Part shown: positions 5,401 through 47,439 of the stretch, piece after piece
How the letters are laid out: every line of letters starts with the position of its first letter
How positions within the stretch are numbered: position 1 is the first letter of the stretch
NCBI GenBank assembly: GCA_947629685.1
Contig: CANREP010000008.1
Span: forward strand, 1-64,000
Length of the DNA stretch: 64,000 nucleotides
Reading direction: 5' to 3'
DNA from: an uncultured Phascolarctobacterium sp.
Lineage (GTDB): Bacteria > Bacillota > Negativicutes > Acidaminococcales > Acidaminococcaceae
Position numbers and translations under genes: made by a program
The notes under the pieces: model-generated
The model's database searches: none
What the model saw: only the letters and a program-made list of their open reading frames with translations
Told to the model about the DNA's origin: nothing

Positions 5401-5650
5401 AATAACTATTCATAACAGTAAATATTGTAAAGGCAAAGAACGGAAGGACTTTGCGTTAAGTCGGTAAGAGAAGCGGCGGTTGGTGCAAGCCGTTCCGAAT
5501 ACGCACGGTTGTAGTCCCGGAGCCTCGTTCCTGAACTATCAGTAAGGCGCGACGCTGCAGCGGCGTTATGCGTAGGAAGAGCATCTAAATAAGGGTGGTA
5601 CCGCGGTTTATCATCGCCCCTGTCTGCAATTTGCAGGCGGGGGTTTTATT
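5401..5650 (+). promoter_or_regulatory. T-box leader controlling ilvNB
   Basis: tRNA-sensing riboswitch. Stem I contains the conserved GCGGTTGGTGCAAGC apical region (5474-5490). The antiterminator T-box AGGGTGGTACCGCG is at 5592-5605. The competing terminator is at 5616-5648. Lining up Stem I with the second T-box in this window on the shared GGAGC places the specifier at 5511-5513, GTA (valine). An ATC (isoleucine) sits at 5538-5540 just before AGTA, but that lies past Stem I. Either amino acid suits acetolactate synthase. In the family, uncharged cognate tRNA pairs with the specifier and T-box and lets transcription continue. Confidence 0.93.
5616..5648 (+). terminator. T-box terminator of the ilvNB leader
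   Basis: CCCC and CTGCAA on the 5' side pair with TTGCAG and GGGG, followed by TTTTATTTTT. It lies directly after the T-box sequence, whose antiterminator form would block it. Confidence 0.85.
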
Positions 5651-14128: not shown

Positions 14129-15406
14129 TTATTTAACAACGCTGGGCAGCCAGGTGGCAATCTGCGGGAAGAAGCAGAGCAGGACGATTTCCAGCGCCAT
14201 AACGATGCCGAAGGGAATAACGCCTTTGATGATCTGCGTCATCTTGCTGTCCGGGCTGATGCCCTGCAGCACAAACAGATTCATGCCGACCGGCGGAGTA
14301 ATCAGCGCCAGTTCCAGGTTAATCAGCATTACTACGTTGAACCAGATCGGGTCGAAACCAAGACGCATGATAAGCGGGAACAAAATCGGCAGAGTAATAA
14401 AGATGATGGAAACAGATTCCAAGATACAGCCCAAAAAGAGCAGCAAAATATTGATAGCTACAAAAATCACCCAACGATTGGTCTGCATATCGACAACAAA
14501 ATTTGTCAAAGCCTGCGGAGCGTCTAAGATGGTAAGCACGAATCCGAACAGGCTGGCGCCGATCATGATGGCAAAAATCATGCAGGTGGTCTTGATAGTA
14601 TCTTCCAGTATCTCCGGCATATCTTTCAGTGACAAGGTACGGTAAATAAAGAAAGTGATAATCAGGCTGTAGACGGTACCGATGCCGGCAGCTTCAGTAG
14701 GCGTAAAAATACCGGTGTAAATACCGCCTACTACGATAACCGGCAGCATCAGTCCCCAAAAAGATTTTTTCAAAGCGCCGATACGCTCATCCCAGCTGGC
14801 AGCAGCCTCCAGCGGCAGATTTCTTGATCTGTACACAACAATCATAATAAACAATACTGTCAGAATAACTCCGGGAACCACGCCGGACATAAACAGTTTA
14901 CCGATGGATTCGTCAGTAATAGCGCCGTATAAAATCATGGGGATGGACGGCGGGATGAGGATGCCCAAAGTACCGCCGGCTGCAACAGCACCCAAAACCA
15001 GCGAGCGTTCATAACCGCGGGAAAGCATTTCCGGAATGGCGATAGCGCCTATCGTAACAGCACAGGCAACTGAAGAGCCGGTAATAGCAGCAAAGACCGC
15101 ACAGGCCATAACCGTAGCGATACCAAGACCTCCGGGCAGATGACGCAGCCATTTATTCGCCAGTTCAAACAAATCGTTGCCTACCTTGCCGGTCAGCAGT
15201 ATCTGGCTCATCAAAATGTATAATGGCACAGCAGTCAGTACAAAGTCATCCAATGATTTATAGCCGATAATCGGCAGCTGTGCCAACGCTCCGTCGCCGC
15301 CCATAAAAAGCAGCATTCCGGCAACGCCCGCCATACCGAGCGAAAAAGCAACCGGCAGACCCATAACAAGCAGCAGCAGCAGTAAAGCGGTAAATCCTAA
15401 AATCAT
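14129..15406 (-). CDS. dctM: TRAP transporter large permease subunit (DctM)
   Basis: Membrane subunit that carries the Na+-coupled transport pathway of the tripartite system. The 425 residues contain about 12 hydrophobic segments; GMAGVAGMLLFMGG, the CAVFAAITGSSVACAVTIGAIAIPEM block and GGTLGILIPPSIPMILYG are characteristic. Full length. Its start is one base after the dctQ stop. It is last in the T-box-controlled operon lyase-dctP-dctQ-dctM, and a hairpin follows. Confidence 0.95.
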   Translation of the reverse strand: MILGFTALLLLLLVMGLPVAFSLGMAGVAGMLLFMGGDGALAQLPIIGYKSLDDFVLTAVPLYILMSQILLTGKVGNDLFELANKWLRHLPGGLGIATVMACAVFAAITGSSVACAVTIGAIAIPEMLSRGYERSLVLGAVAAGGTLGILIPPSIPMILYGAITDESIGKLFMSGVVPGVILTVLFIMIVVYRSRNLPLEAAASWDERIGALKKSFWGLMLPVIVVGGIYTGIFTPTEAAGIGTVYSLIITFFIYRTLSLKDMPEILEDTIKTTCMIFAIMIGASLFGFVLTILDAPQALTNFVVDMQTNRWVIFVAINILLLFLGCILESVSIIFITLPILFPLIMRLGFDPIWFNVVMLINLELALITPPVGMNLFVLQGISPDSKMTQIIKGVIPFGIVMALEIVLLCFFPQIATWLPSVVK

Positions 15407-15931
15407 TTATTTTACCTCCTCACTGAAATCATTATTTTTGATTCTGACAAAATCTACCAACAACGTGCGGATAAGCTGCAAAAGCAGCACCAGCATACCA
15501 ACAGGCATCGCCATCTGCGGTATCCATAGCGGTGTACTCAAGGTCGTAGGCGCGCAGTTATTGATTTCCAGAGAAAACATCGTCATTTCCCAGGACTGCT
15601 GCATAAAGATAAAGCTGTAAAACAGGCCGATAATGCTTGTAATAAACTCCGTATAGCAGCGCGCCTTAGGCGACAGCTTGGACAGGACAATATCCACATG
15701 GATATGTTTTTTGCCTGCATAAGCAACGCCCATACCTAAAAATCCGGCCACGACCACACAATAGGTAGAAATTTCCATTACCCATTCTGTCGGCGCATTA
15801 AATGCTCCACGGCAGATTACCTCATAGACGATCATAAAGCCGGTAAACAGCACCAGCAAGCCGGCAACAATCCCGGCAGCCTTAGTAATCGCCCGTAATA
15901 TTCTGTCATATATTGCAATAAATCTTTCCAC
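15407..15931 (-). CDS. dctQ: TRAP transporter small permease subunit (DctQ)
   Basis: Four-helix membrane subunit of 174 residues that pairs with DctM. Hydrophobic segments lie near residues 17-38, 50-70, 90-110 and 133-155; the region AYAGKKHIHVDIVLSKLSP between the second and third is the typical conserved loop. It has the normal size for the family and lies between dctP (32 bases upstream) and dctM (abutting), so the order is the usual one. Confidence 0.93.
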   Translation of the reverse strand: MERFIAIYDRILRAITKAAGIVAGLLVLFTGFMIVYEVICRGAFNAPTEWVMEISTYCVVVAGFLGMGVAYAGKKHIHVDIVLSKLSPKARCYTEFITSIIGLFYSFIFMQQSWEMTMFSLEINNCAPTTLSTPLWIPQMAMPVGMLVLLLQLIRTLLVDFVRIKNNDFSEEVK

Positions 15932-15963
15932 TGTATCACTCTCACTTTAATTTACAAAACCCG

Positions 15964-16980
15964 TCAGGACTTGGTGCAGATATCAATCAGTTCCTGACCA
16001 AGTTTGCCGTTTTCTTTAACGAATACGTCCCAAACCGGGGCAGTTGCATCACGCCAAGCCTGCAATTCGTTTTCAGGAACGACATACACTTTCATGCCTT
16101 TGGCTTTCAGATCTTCCAATGCCTGCAAGTCTTCTTTCTTAGCATTAGCTCTGATATCGTTACGTACTTCCAGCGCAGCTTCATTCAAAGCTTTCTTCTG
16201 GCTGTCGTTCAGCTTGTTATAAGATTTTTCGTTAATAGCAACAATAAATTCCGGGGAAGCATGATTGGTAATAGTCAGATATTCATGCACTTCATACATC
16301 TTACGGTCGCGCATAGCCGGTGTGCCGGAGCTCTGTCCGTCAATAGTACCGCGCTGGATGCCCATATAAACTTCACTGGCGCCCATGGTAACGGAAGACG
16401 CGCCCAATGCTTTAATGGTTTCAGCAGAATATTTGCTGTAGCCGCGAATCTTGAGTCCTGCAAAATCTGCCGGCGATTTGATTTCCTTTTTGTTATTGGC
16501 AAACTGTACAAAACCATAGTCAGCCCAAATCAAAGGACGCACGCCTTTTTTCTGCAGTTCGCTGCCAAGCTTGTCGCCCAGGCCGCCGTCGATAGCATGG
16601 TCTACCTTAGCATAATCCGGGAACAGGAAAGGTACGTCAAAAACGTCCATCGCTGGTATGATGCTGGCCCATCTGCCTACGGTGTTAAGACCCATATCGA
16701 TACCGCCGGACATAATGGCATCATTCATATTTTTGTCGTTATACAGCTGACCCGCCGGATAAATAGCAATCTTGACTGTACCGCTGGATTTAGCCGCTGT
16801 CTTATCCTTAAGACTTTCCATTGCCTTTACCAGCGGGTGACTTGCCGGCAGCGCCGTAGCCATTTTAAGTTCTACTGTACTGCCGTCTGCAGCTTTTTTG
16901 TTGTCGCTGCCGCCGCAGCCGCCAACCAGAGCCATTGCGGCAATCAAAGCTGCCGCTGTCATCTTTTTCATCCATTTCAT
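15964..16980 (-). CDS. dctP: TRAP transporter substrate-binding lipoprotein (DctP)
   Basis: Extracytoplasmic solute receptor. A lipobox LVGGC at residues 18-22 predicts a lipoprotein rather than a freely soluble protein. The mature part has the DctP-family fold: MATALPASHPLVKAM, then LKIRGYSKYSAETIKALGAS, whose arginine in this family usually grips the substrate carboxylate, then YMGIQRGTIDGQSSG. At 338 residues it is full length. The substrate is therefore most likely an organic acid, but its identity is not visible. It lies 30 bases after the lyase gene in the same transcript. Confidence 0.93.
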   Translation of the reverse strand: MKWMKKMTAAALIAAMALVGGCGGSDNKKAADGSTVELKMATALPASHPLVKAMESLKDKTAAKSSGTVKIAIYPAGQLYNDKNMNDAIMSGGIDMGLNTVGRWASIIPAMDVFDVPFLFPDYAKVDHAIDGGLGDKLGSELQKKGVRPLIWADYGFVQFANNKKEIKSPADFAGLKIRGYSKYSAETIKALGASSVTMGASEVYMGIQRGTIDGQSSGTPAMRDRKMYEVHEYLTITNHASPEFIVAINEKSYNKLNDSQKKALNEAALEVRNDIRANAKKEDLQALEDLKAKGMKVYVVPENELQAWRDATAPVWDVFVKENGKLGQELIDICTKS

Positions 16981-17010
16981 AATTAAACACTCCTTTTTTA
17001 ATGAAATTTT

Positions 17011-17874
17011 TTATTTATATTTTTGATCAAGCTCATTGTATGCATTGAGCCCGATAAATTCATTGAACTGTTCAAAGCTGAGCATCTCCTGCCCGCTGCC
17101 TGTCGTGGTACCATGTTCACGCAGCTGACGCATAACCGTACCGAAAGCCTTGGTAACCGTATAGACAGAAGTGCAGGGCCAGAAAACAACTTTAAAGCCC
17201 ATTTCCTGCAGTTCAGCCGCAGTAAGTACGGGCGTTCTGCCCCCTTCTATCATATTAGCTATCAGAATTGTATCCGGGAAACTGCGGCTGATTGTTTCCA
17301 GCTCTTTCACATCCTGCGGCGCCTCGATAAAAAGCGCGTCGGCGCCGCTGTCAAGATAAAGCTTGCCGCGCTCGACAGCGGCCTCCAGCCCTAATACCGC
17401 TCTGGCATCAGTCCTGGCAATCAGCAGCGTATCCGTAAAAGTTTTAGCATCTGCGGCTGCGCGTAGTTTCTTGGCGTGTTCAGCAGCGTCAATAACCTGT
17501 TTTCCCCGCATATGTCCACAACGCTTAGGCCACACCTGGTCTTCAAAAAGTACGGCAGCAGCTCCTGCGGCTTCATACTCCCGCATCGTCCGCATAGCGC
17601 TCAGATTATTGCCATAACCAGTATCGCCGTCTGCAAAAACCGGCAGCTGCACGGCTCTTGTTATACACCGCAGCGCTTCAGCCATCTCCGTCATGGACAA
17701 ATACCCTACGTCAGGTTCTCCCAGCCTGCTGGCTGCCACCCCATAGCCGCCCATGACCAGACCTTCAAAGCCTGCTGCAGCCGCAATCTTGGCCGTCAGC
17801 GCATCGTAAACGCCGGGCAGAATTAGAATATCTTTTTGCTGCAGCCTTTGCCGCAGCTTTTTGCGTACATCCAT
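17011..17874 (-). CDS. Isocitrate lyase / PEP mutase family enzyme (PrpB-like)
   Basis: Mg2+-dependent (beta/alpha)8 enzyme of the family that cleaves or forms C-C or C-P bonds next to a carboxylate (2-methylisocitrate lyase, 2,3-dimethylmalate lyase, oxaloacetate hydrolase, PEP mutase). Visible: the metal-site region FADGDTGYGN, the active-site loop KRCGH within VWPKRCGHMRGK (lyase-type, with cysteine), LLIARTDAR and FIEAPQDVKE. The KRCGH loop favours lyase over phosphonomutase. At 287 residues it is PrpB-sized, but no prpC, prpD or other 2-methylcitrate gene is near. It is the first gene after a T-box leader and precedes a TRAP transporter, so its substrate is likely what the TRAP system imports. 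AGGTG lies upstream of the ATG. Confidence 0.88.
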   Translation of the reverse strand: MDVRKKLRQRLQQKDILILPGVYDALTAKIAAAAGFEGLVMGGYGVAASRLGEPDVGYLSMTEMAEALRCITRAVQLPVFADGDTGYGNNLSAMRTMREYEAAGAAAVLFEDQVWPKRCGHMRGKQVIDAAEHAKKLRAAADAKTFTDTLLIARTDARAVLGLEAAVERGKLYLDSGADALFIEAPQDVKELETISRSFPDTILIANMIEGGRTPVLTAAELQEMGFKVVFWPCTSVYTVTKAFGTVMRQLREHGTTTGSGQEMLSFEQFNEFIGLNAYNELDQKYK

Positions 17875-17897
17875 TTTTTCACCTCTCTGTTTACAAT

Positions 17898-17931
17898 AAA
17901 AAAAGCCCCTATCGGCAAAGCCGATAGGGGC
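17898..17931 (-). terminator. T-box terminator of the lyase-TRAP leader
   Basis: GCCCCTATCGGC, loop AAA (TTT on the minus strand), then GCCGATAGGGGC: a 12-bp perfect stem followed by seven T on the minus strand, right after the T-box sequence. Confidence 0.92.
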
Positions 17932-18143
17932 GTAATACGCGGTACCACCCTATATTATACTCTTAACTTTAACGCAGCAGTACGCTTTTTCCTAATTATT
18001 TCAGAAAAAGAGCTCCCGGGCGAGAAAAACAGTTCCTGCTTTTCCGGCTCACACCAACCGCCGGATCTCTGTAACGAGTCCCTGTCTTATTCCCGTTCAT
18101 TACCTATACATGTTTACAGTTTCTAAGGTTTTTCTTAAAAATT
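17898..18143 (-). promoter_or_regulatory. T-box leader controlling the lyase-TRAP operon, probable Leu specifier
   Basis: tRNA-sensing riboswitch on the minus strand. AGGGTGGTACCGCG lies at 17938-17951. The Stem I apical region GGCGGTTGGTGTGAGCCGG spans about 18044-18062. A hairpin CTTTTTC/GGAAAAAG follows Stem I. In T-boxes of this layout the specifier stands before an N-YCC-nGGAG block; here that gives CTC (leucine) at 18022-18024. One register away, TTC (phenylalanine) would be read, so the amino acid is probable, not certain. The presence of a T-box is clear; only its ligand tRNA is inferred. Confidence 0.92.
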
Positions 18144-18149
18144 AAACAT

Positions 18150-18178
18150 AGTATAACAACGCTCTTATTTTCTGTCAA
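18150..18178 (-). promoter_or_regulatory. Consensus promoter of the lyase-TRAP T-box operon
   Basis: TTGACA at 18173-18178, 17 bases, TATACT at 18150-18155 on the minus strand. Transcription would start near 18143. Between 18179 and the next gene at 18276 the sequence is A+T rich with no recognisable element. Confidence 0.8.
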
Positions 18179-46054: not shown

Positions 46055-46076
46055 ATGAATTACAATTCAACATTCT

Positions 46077-46178
46077 GGTGCAGGACTGACGGATAAGTGG
46101 AATTGACCACATGTACTGCTCCATGAACACTGCCGACCGTCTGGGCAATCTCATTTGACCCGGATGGTTTTTGTTTTT
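46077..46178 (+). promoter_or_regulatory. ZTP (pfl-motif) riboswitch controlling the OFA transporter
   Basis: The leader has GGACTGACGG (46083-46092), hairpin GTGG/CCAC (46097-46110), and CCGACCGTCTGGGC (46133-46146), the signature 3' part of the pfl motif. The pseudoknot pairs GACGG (46088-46092) with CCGTC (46137-46141); the usual form is GGCG with CGCC, so both sides changed together here. The expression platform is the terminator at 46137-46178, which uses the same CCGTCTGGG. Ligand binding would free the gene for transcription. Expected ligand: ZTP or ZMP, a sign of low 10-formyl-THF. Confidence 0.82.
46137..46178 (+). terminator. Terminator of the ZTP riboswitch
   Basis: CCGTCTGGG (46137-46145) pairs with CCCGGATGG (46159-46167) through nine pairs including two G-T wobbles, followed by TTTTTGTTTTT. 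The left arm is also part of the riboswitch pseudoknot, so aptamer folding and termination exclude each other. Confidence 0.75.
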
Positions 46179-46218
46179 CTTCCGGTCAAAAAACTATGAA
46201 CAGAAAGAGGTTTTGATA

Positions 46219-47439
46219 ATGAAAAAAAACAAATGGCTCATCGTTCTGTCAGCTATCGGAATCCATATCTGCATAGGCAGTGTTTACGCCTGGAGCGTCC
46301 TTACTAAGCCTATTATGCAGTCAATGGGCTTTACCCTGCAGGAAACTACCTGGACTTTCTCCCTGGCCATATTGTTTCTTGGCCTTTCTGCCGGTTTCTT
46401 AGGCAGTTACGTTGAAAAGCACGGTCCGCGCCGCAGCGGCCTTGTATCTACTGTCTTTTTCGGTATCGGTATGCTGGGCACCGCCTTTGCTCTTTCCCAG
46501 CATAGCTTATCACTGATGTATCTGTTTTACGGTGTTATCGGCGGCATCGGACTGGGCACAGGTTATATAACTCCTGTTTCTACCTTGGTAAAATGGTTTC
46601 CCAATAACCGCGGCCTGGCCACCGGTCTGGCTATTATGGGCTTTGGTTTTGCCAGCCTCATTGCCGGCCCCGTCATGCAGCTGTTGATTGCTAAATACGG
46701 ACTTATCAATAATTTTATCATCCTCGGCTGTGTTTACATGGTAGTAATGACAGCTTCCTCACTGTACCTGGAGCCGCCGCAAGCCGCTCCCATAACCGAA
46801 GCTAAAGCTAAACTTGCCTCTGTGCCAGCTGCCAGTCAGTCACAGTACACTGTTAACGAAGCTATGAAAACTTGGCAGTTTTATGCTTTATGGTGGATTT
46901 TCTTTACCAATATTACCTGCGGCATCGGCTTACTTGCAGTAGCATCTCCCATGGCCCAGGAAGTCATCCACATGACGCCGCTGGCAGCAGCCTCCATGGT
47001 CGGCATTATCGGTCTGCTTAACGGTCTTGGCCGTATCGTTTGGTCCACTATTTCTGATTATATCGGCAGACGTAATACCTACATCCTGTTCTTTTTACTG
47101 GAAATAATCGCGTTCTATCTGCTCGCCAGTGTTACCGACAGCTTCCTGTTCCAAGCGCTGATTTTCCTTATCATCACTTGCTACGGCGGCGGTTTTTCCT
47201 GTATGCCGGCATATCTCAGCGATTTATTCGGTACCAAACAGCTCAGCGCCATCCACGGCCGTATCCTCACTGCCTGGGGTCTGGCTGGTATCGCCGGACC
47301 ATTGCTGCTGTCCTGGATCAAGGAAACTACTAACAGCTACTCTATCACTCTTTATTTCTTCTCCGGCTGTTTCGTACTCAGCCTGTTGATTGCGGTTATT
47401 TTGAAATTAAAAACTCAAAACGGATTAAAGAAAATTTAG
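46219..47439 (+). CDS. OFA-family major facilitator transporter (oxalate/formate antiporter type)
   Basis: MFS carrier of about 406 residues with 12 membrane segments. MKKNKWLIVLSAIGIHICIGSVYAWSVLTKP is the typical OFA start; GGIGLGTGYITPVSTLVKWFPNNRGLATGLA and the second-half GIIGLLNGLGRIVWSTISDYIGRRN are MFS loop motifs. The family includes the oxalate:formate antiporter but many members move other monocarboxylates. Start chosen at MKKNKW, after AGAGG; the upstream in-frame ATG lies in the terminator. The ZTP riboswitch suggests a link to one-carbon metabolism, for example formate import. Confidence 0.88.
   Translation: MKKNKWLIVLSAIGIHICIGSVYAWSVLTKPIMQSMGFTLQETTWTFSLAILFLGLSAGFLGSYVEKHGPRRSGLVSTVFFGIGMLGTAFALSQHSLSLMYLFYGVIGGIGLGTGYITPVSTLVKWFPNNRGLATGLAIMGFGFASLIAGPVMQLLIAKYGLINNFIILGCVYMVVMTASSLYLEPPQAAPITEAKAKLASVPAASQSQYTVNEAMKTWQFYALWWIFFTNITCGIGLLAVASPMAQEVIHMTPLAAASMVGIIGLLNGLGRIVWSTISDYIGRRNTYILFFLLEIIAFYLLASVTDSFLFQALIFLIITCYGGGFSCMPAYLSDLFGTKQLSAIHGRILTAWGLAGIAGPLLLSWIKETTNSYSITLYFFSGCFVLSLLIAVILKLKTQNGLKKI

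Follow-up and report, generated by a model that had tools for sequence, protein, structure and literature searches.

A leucine T-box upstream of a lyase and a TRAP transporter points to possible isopropylmalate salvage in Negativicutes

In an uncultured Phascolarctobacterium sp., a T-box leader with a leucine specifier precedes the genes of a lyase and a TRAP transporter, which raises the question of which compound these proteins handle and how it relates to leucine. The locus lies in a stretch of 64,000 nucleotides of contig CANREP010000008.1, here called the window. A preliminary description of this DNA had proposed that amino acid starvation, most likely for leucine, induces the import of an organic acid which the lyase turns into an amino acid precursor. 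Regulation by leucine is supported by the analysis reported here, and the chemistry, import of an organic acid and its conversion by the lyase to an amino acid precursor, is the most likely reading from genomic context. The features of the locus are as follows.

18150–18178, minus strand: sigma-70-type promoter, TTGACA-17-TATACT, with extended −10, matching 11 of 12 consensus positions.
17923–18109, minus strand: T-box leader of the transcription-attenuating type (RF00230; cmscan, 104.3 bits, model positions 1–219).
18022–18024, minus strand: specifier CUC (Leu), from the specifier columns of RF00230 and an alignment of the leuS, leuA and leuC T-boxes.
17944–17947, minus strand: UGGU of the antiterminator bulge, whose partner is the ACCA of tRNA-Leu, read from the sequence.
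17905–17931, minus strand: intrinsic terminator, a stem of 12 bp followed by T7 (z = −5.3).
17011–17874, minus strand: lyase of the PEP mutase/isocitrate lyase superfamily, 287 aa, predicted 2-isopropylmalate (2-alkylmalate) lyase (PF13714; TIGR02317 below cut-off).
15964–16980, minus strand: dctP, TRAP solute-binding lipoprotein (PF03480, TIGR00787, NF037995).
15407–15931, minus strand: dctQ, TRAP small permease (PF04290).
14129–15406, minus strand: dctM, TRAP large permease (PF06808, TIGR00786).

The complete T-box leader, consensus promoter and strong terminator described beforehand were all recovered. The leader gave a single complete match to RF00230 (E = 6e-22; score above the gathering score of 93), within which an antiterminator alternative to the terminator aligns, and AGGGTGGTACCGCG lies at 17951–17938 on the minus strand. 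The host genome has 13 T-boxes, this leader and 12 others, and comparison gave the specifiers CUC for leuS, leuA and leuC, AUC for ileS and ilvB, GUA for ilvN and UUC for pheS. Read with the covariance model, the CTC proposed earlier as the leucine specifier agrees with these other T-boxes and with those of relatives, and the specifier region resembles that of the host leuA leader. We found no specifier that lacked a link to the pathway, nearly all relatives having a leucine codon at this position (CUG in two cases). The host also carries a gene for tRNA-Leu(GAG) that ends in ...ACCA; the discriminator is therefore A, which matches the UGGU of the leader. Together these sequence comparisons strongly support transcription of lyase-dctPQM under leucine T-box control.

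Three further regulatory elements were observed in the window. A second T-box (5427–5624, plus strand, 92 bits) with the valine specifier GUA precedes an ilvN/ilvH-like and then an ilvB-like gene, and a ZMP/ZTP riboswitch (46072–46153, plus strand, 55.8 bits) directly precedes an ORF (46171–47439) that resembles an MFS transporter and not a purine or folate gene. Just upstream of typA/bipA (14116–14046, minus strand) lies a promoter of perfect consensus, TTGACA-17-TATAAT, with a short leader in which an 11-bp hairpin (GAAGGATGCT..TTGACA..AGCATCCTTC) is followed by a T-rich tail; the hairpin is kept in most relatives compared, suggesting control of BipA by an attenuator or by a conserved hairpin.

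Downstream of the leader, dctP, dctQ and dctM follow the lyase gene without interruption, as had been described, with gaps of 30, 32 and 0 bases, so that one operon encodes all three subunits of a DctP-type TRAP transporter. The earlier placement of the lyase, with its KRCGH motif, in the PrpB/isocitrate lyase family holds at the level of the superfamily: PF13714, the K-(K/R)-C-G-H motif and the Asp pair, Arg, Glu and Asn are all present, and the catalytic residues D82, D84, C119, H121, R154, E184 and N207 are invariant. We rejected identity with PrpB itself on the TIGR02317 (methylisocitrate lyase) score, which was 286.4 bits against a curated equivalog cut-off of 354.4 bits. PrpB has the same fold and catalytic residues, but the T-box lyase lacks the Arg that aligns, in the solved methylisocitrate lyase, with Tyr238; this Arg presumably reads the third carboxylate, and its absence would fit the loss of that group from the substrate. 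Reading the ORF list of the window by eye, we saw no propionate or 2-methylcitrate gene, in agreement with the preliminary description.

A second candidate, the 2,3-dimethylmalate lyase of nicotinate fermentation, belongs to the same superfamily and its likely Negativicutes paralogues lie beside LeuCD-like and isomerase genes. It was rejected on the lyase tree, in which the Leu- and Val-T-box lyases group together in a single clade (support 0.97), with the nicotinate-cluster enzymes, those adjoining DmdAB-like and isomerase genes, standing apart (0.99); the T-box lyases also differ from it at G42, Y58, Y87, W115 and C234. The nearest solved structure by sequence is the petal death protein (1zlp, 45% identity over the model), a 2-alkylmalate/oxaloacetate lyase which shares WPK(K/R)CGHM with the T-box lyase, but is a plant enzyme with no such gene context and occupies a separate branch of the tree. 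Like dimethylmalate lyase, the petal death protein splits 2-alkylmalates into a 2-oxo acid and a carboxylic acid.

Orthologues of the lyase (63–91% identity) are found both within the host family and in several further Negativicutes families, with Sporomusa ovata as one example. A T-box lies upstream in 13 of the 15 loci of the first set scanned and in two of a second set, with the specifier CUC throughout both sets (several specifiers were missed by automatic reading, and those loci were read by eye), and dctPQM lies downstream in nearly all. The order T-box, lyase, TRAP thus recurs across several families of the Negativicutes, and it is well supported that the unit is a member of a leucine/valine regulon of this group. 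In a Sporomusaceae MAG (L061/L093) the gene order is T-box-leuA-leuC-leuD-leuB-lyase-dctP-dctQ-dctM, where the T-box matches Rfam with 87.5 bits, LeuA, LeuC and LeuB score above their NCBIfam cut-offs, and LeuD falls just under an equivalog cut-off and above a subfamily cut-off. In another genome, G046, the lyase gene lies 41 bases upstream of ilvD (a gap of about 40 bases), whose product also yields 2-oxoisovalerate. Among 18 T-box-lyase genomes tested, 17 have a LeuA homologue, and the host itself has LeuA, LeuCDB, IlvB and IlvC.

These gene neighbourhoods bear on the possibility that the lyase cleaves some other 2-alkylmalate or malate derivative, such as citramalate, 2,3-dimethylmalate or 2-methylisocitrate, with leucine starvation acting as a general signal for carbon scavenging. 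The superfamily is promiscuous, and relatives of the lyase at 42–51% identity are located in nicotinate/dimethylmalate-type clusters. Nevertheless, such a role is rather improbable, as it leaves the leu operon location, the lyase-ilvD pair and the constant Leu/Val specifiers unexplained, and the lyase falls outside the dimethylmalate clade and under the PrpB cut-off.

One genome (G006) has a promoter before lyase-dctPQM and a short, terminator-containing leader that Rfam does not match to a T-box and that may be a decayed one, and in family f15 the TRAP genes occur with or without a T-box. Neither case speaks specifically for the T-box being a relic or a chance neighbour, irrelevant to lyase and TRAP alike, and we consider this extremely unlikely given that the element is kept across families with an intact terminator and that its specifier changes are synonymous.

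The lyase and the transporter had been presented as a unit, but the two do not always occur together. In several genomes T-box-dctPQM occurs with no lyase in the unit at the equivalent chromosomal spot, and the specifier is CUC or CUG, the latter on two distinct branches of a DctP tree. We therefore dropped the lyase as the core of the unit and regard TRAP as its constant part. True leuC and leuB are present in most of the genomes with TRAP only, so whatever is imported must be of use to the cell even where the unit has no lyase. Because nearly all relatives have leuB, its co-occurrence carries no information. Of 380 Negativicutes genomes, 74 carry a DctP of the host clade, and a sample of the phylum showed none outside the class. 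R179 of DctP is invariant in 34 relatives, and a structure model was obtained with a pLDDT of 86.8; many DctP folds score alike, and the ligand specificity of DctP cannot be read from sequence or fold.

The link to leucine, borne out by the specifier and by the location in a leu operon, has to be widened to include valine. IlvC (PF01450) is absent from all seven genomes of family f173, one of them a single contig, and is present in all 14 control genomes. In genus g354 of this family the TRAP leader has the specifier GUC (Val), as does the T-box of valS, and a lyase of the sister subclade (53–54% identity) is encoded elsewhere under its own GUC T-box. Two g354 genomes have this GUC-controlled lyase, as does a contig with the name Dialister sp. 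UBA7295. Genus g355, the sister of g354, keeps lyase and TRAP together under CUC. The leuCDB genes of g354 have a T-box and no leuA alongside, and leuA was not found in the T-box loci examined or beside leuC. As the evidence for valine is drawn from paralogues with 53% identity and from a DctP with about 50%, specificity may have shifted. In three of the lyase loci (L382, L407 and L099), a second antiterminator-like element (GAGUGGUACCGCGC...GCGCCUC) lies between the valine T-box and the lyase, and in L407 the terminator of this second element is visible, giving two decision hairpins behind one Stem I. Two f173 genomes (G720 and G725) have 33 and 37 T-box matches, several of which lie upstream of ABC transporters of the methionine and branched-chain types and of uroporphyrinogen-decarboxylase-like proteins.

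The valine-controlled lyase argues against a role in cleaning up after LeuA, an enzyme that accepts other 2-oxo acids. The lyase would then clear off-pathway products of derepressed LeuA (citramalate, 2-ethylmalate) while TRAP recovers leaked isopropylmalate, which agrees with the operon shared by lyase and leuA in L061. In genomes without IlvC, and with no leuA seen beside leuCDB, few LeuA products would be available to a lyase under valine control, and we regard this role as more doubtful still than cleavage of an unrelated acid.

The strongest rival explanation is that TRAP imports branched-chain 2-oxo acids, as TakP does, and that the lyase acts on another substrate or in reverse, forming 2-isopropylmalate from 2-oxoisovalerate and acetate, which is plentiful in gut or acetogen cells, without acetyl-CoA. 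TakPQM of Rhodobacter is a TRAP transporter for 2-oxo acids which was proposed to feed branched-chain amino acid synthesis by supplying valine and isoleucine precursors (PMC1839085). Genomes lacking IlvC need 2-oxoisovalerate, and the Leu/Val specifier switch fits this compound directly. This explanation covers the valine switch but leaves the valine-controlled lyase of g354 unexplained, because condensation would draw 2-oxoisovalerate away from valine, and a second synthase would be unneeded where LeuA homologues are already present. The same two observations led us to lower the idea of the lyase as a standby LeuA. Moreover, TakP was not among the best DctP matches listed, either by sequence or by fold, from which its exclusion does not follow. 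Overall, import of 2-oxo acids appears unlikely, although less so than the other alternatives.

We favour 2-isopropylmalate as the imported substrate, with moderate confidence, because it is a 2-alkylmalate and a dicarboxylate of the type that proteins with a DctP fold bind, could serve as a source of leucine through LeuCDB without the lyase, and would give 2-oxoisovalerate on cleavage. It would explain the leucine-controlled units with TRAP only, the valine-controlled lyase in genomes without IlvC, the site in the leu operon and the lyase-ilvD pair; fewer of these observations are accounted for by the scavenging of unrelated acids or by the removal of LeuA by-products. The leader comparisons strongly support a switch in which binding of uncharged tRNA-Leu(GAG) lets the antiterminator form and lyase-dctPQM be expressed. 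In the mechanism that we propose, TRAP would then import 2-isopropylmalate, or an isopropylmalate mixture, released by other organisms. LeuCD and LeuB would convert the imported compound to 4-methyl-2-oxopentanoate and on to leucine, while the lyase would cleave it by a retro-Claisen reaction to 2-oxoisovalerate and acetate, the former feeding valine (and pantothenate). Such salvage would bypass LeuA and, where IlvC is missing, IlvC too; in the host, with LeuA, LeuCDB, IlvB and IlvC present, it would be supplementary.

The isopropylmalate proposal has its weak points. A cell short of leucine would use up a leucine precursor by cleaving 2-isopropylmalate, which speaks against it; the apparent waste could be explained by co-transcription of the lyase with the importer and by a joint need for valine. 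G046, which is 79% complete, is a weak point, as it has T-box-TRAP and lyase but neither leuB nor a true leuC was found, the best leuC match being only a 40% relative. On balance, we judge that salvage in which imported 2-isopropylmalate feeds leucine via LeuCDB and valine via the lyase is about as likely as not. We advance a little more tentatively the wider idea that T-box-controlled TRAP transporters import isopropylmalate from the community, that LeuCDB turn it into leucine and that a new family of isopropylmalate lyases supplies 2-oxoisovalerate for valine, so that anaerobes without IlvC could draw both amino acids from a single shared metabolite.

Leucine T-box regulons have been described for ilv-leu in B. 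subtilis and for leuA in Geobacter (PMC2494555), and share with the present locus the CUC specifier, attenuation and the leucine pathway, but here the controlled genes are instead a TRAP importer and a lyase. The table of T-box-controlled transporter families in Wels et al. 2008 comprises ABC, APC, DAACS, LIVCS, MFS, NHAC and NSS, and TRAP is absent from it. TakPQM is likewise a TRAP transporter, but is not a close relative and has neither T-box nor lyase. No system joining a T-box to TRAP or to a methylisocitrate lyase was found in the literature searched (the two main T-box surveys lay outside the search), nor was anything relevant to isopropylmalate uptake by TRAP; the novelty of T-box control of TRAP is thus probable, not proven.

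These results add TRAP transporters to the apparent targets of T-box regulation and provide a testable function for a lyase that would be annotated in databases as PrpB-like or as a carboxyphosphonoenolpyruvate mutase. If the proposed salvage is true, isopropylmalate-type intermediates would be traded between gut bacteria, and the apparent valine/leucine auxotrophy of some Negativicutes lacking IlvC would amount to dependence on an intermediate made by a neighbour.
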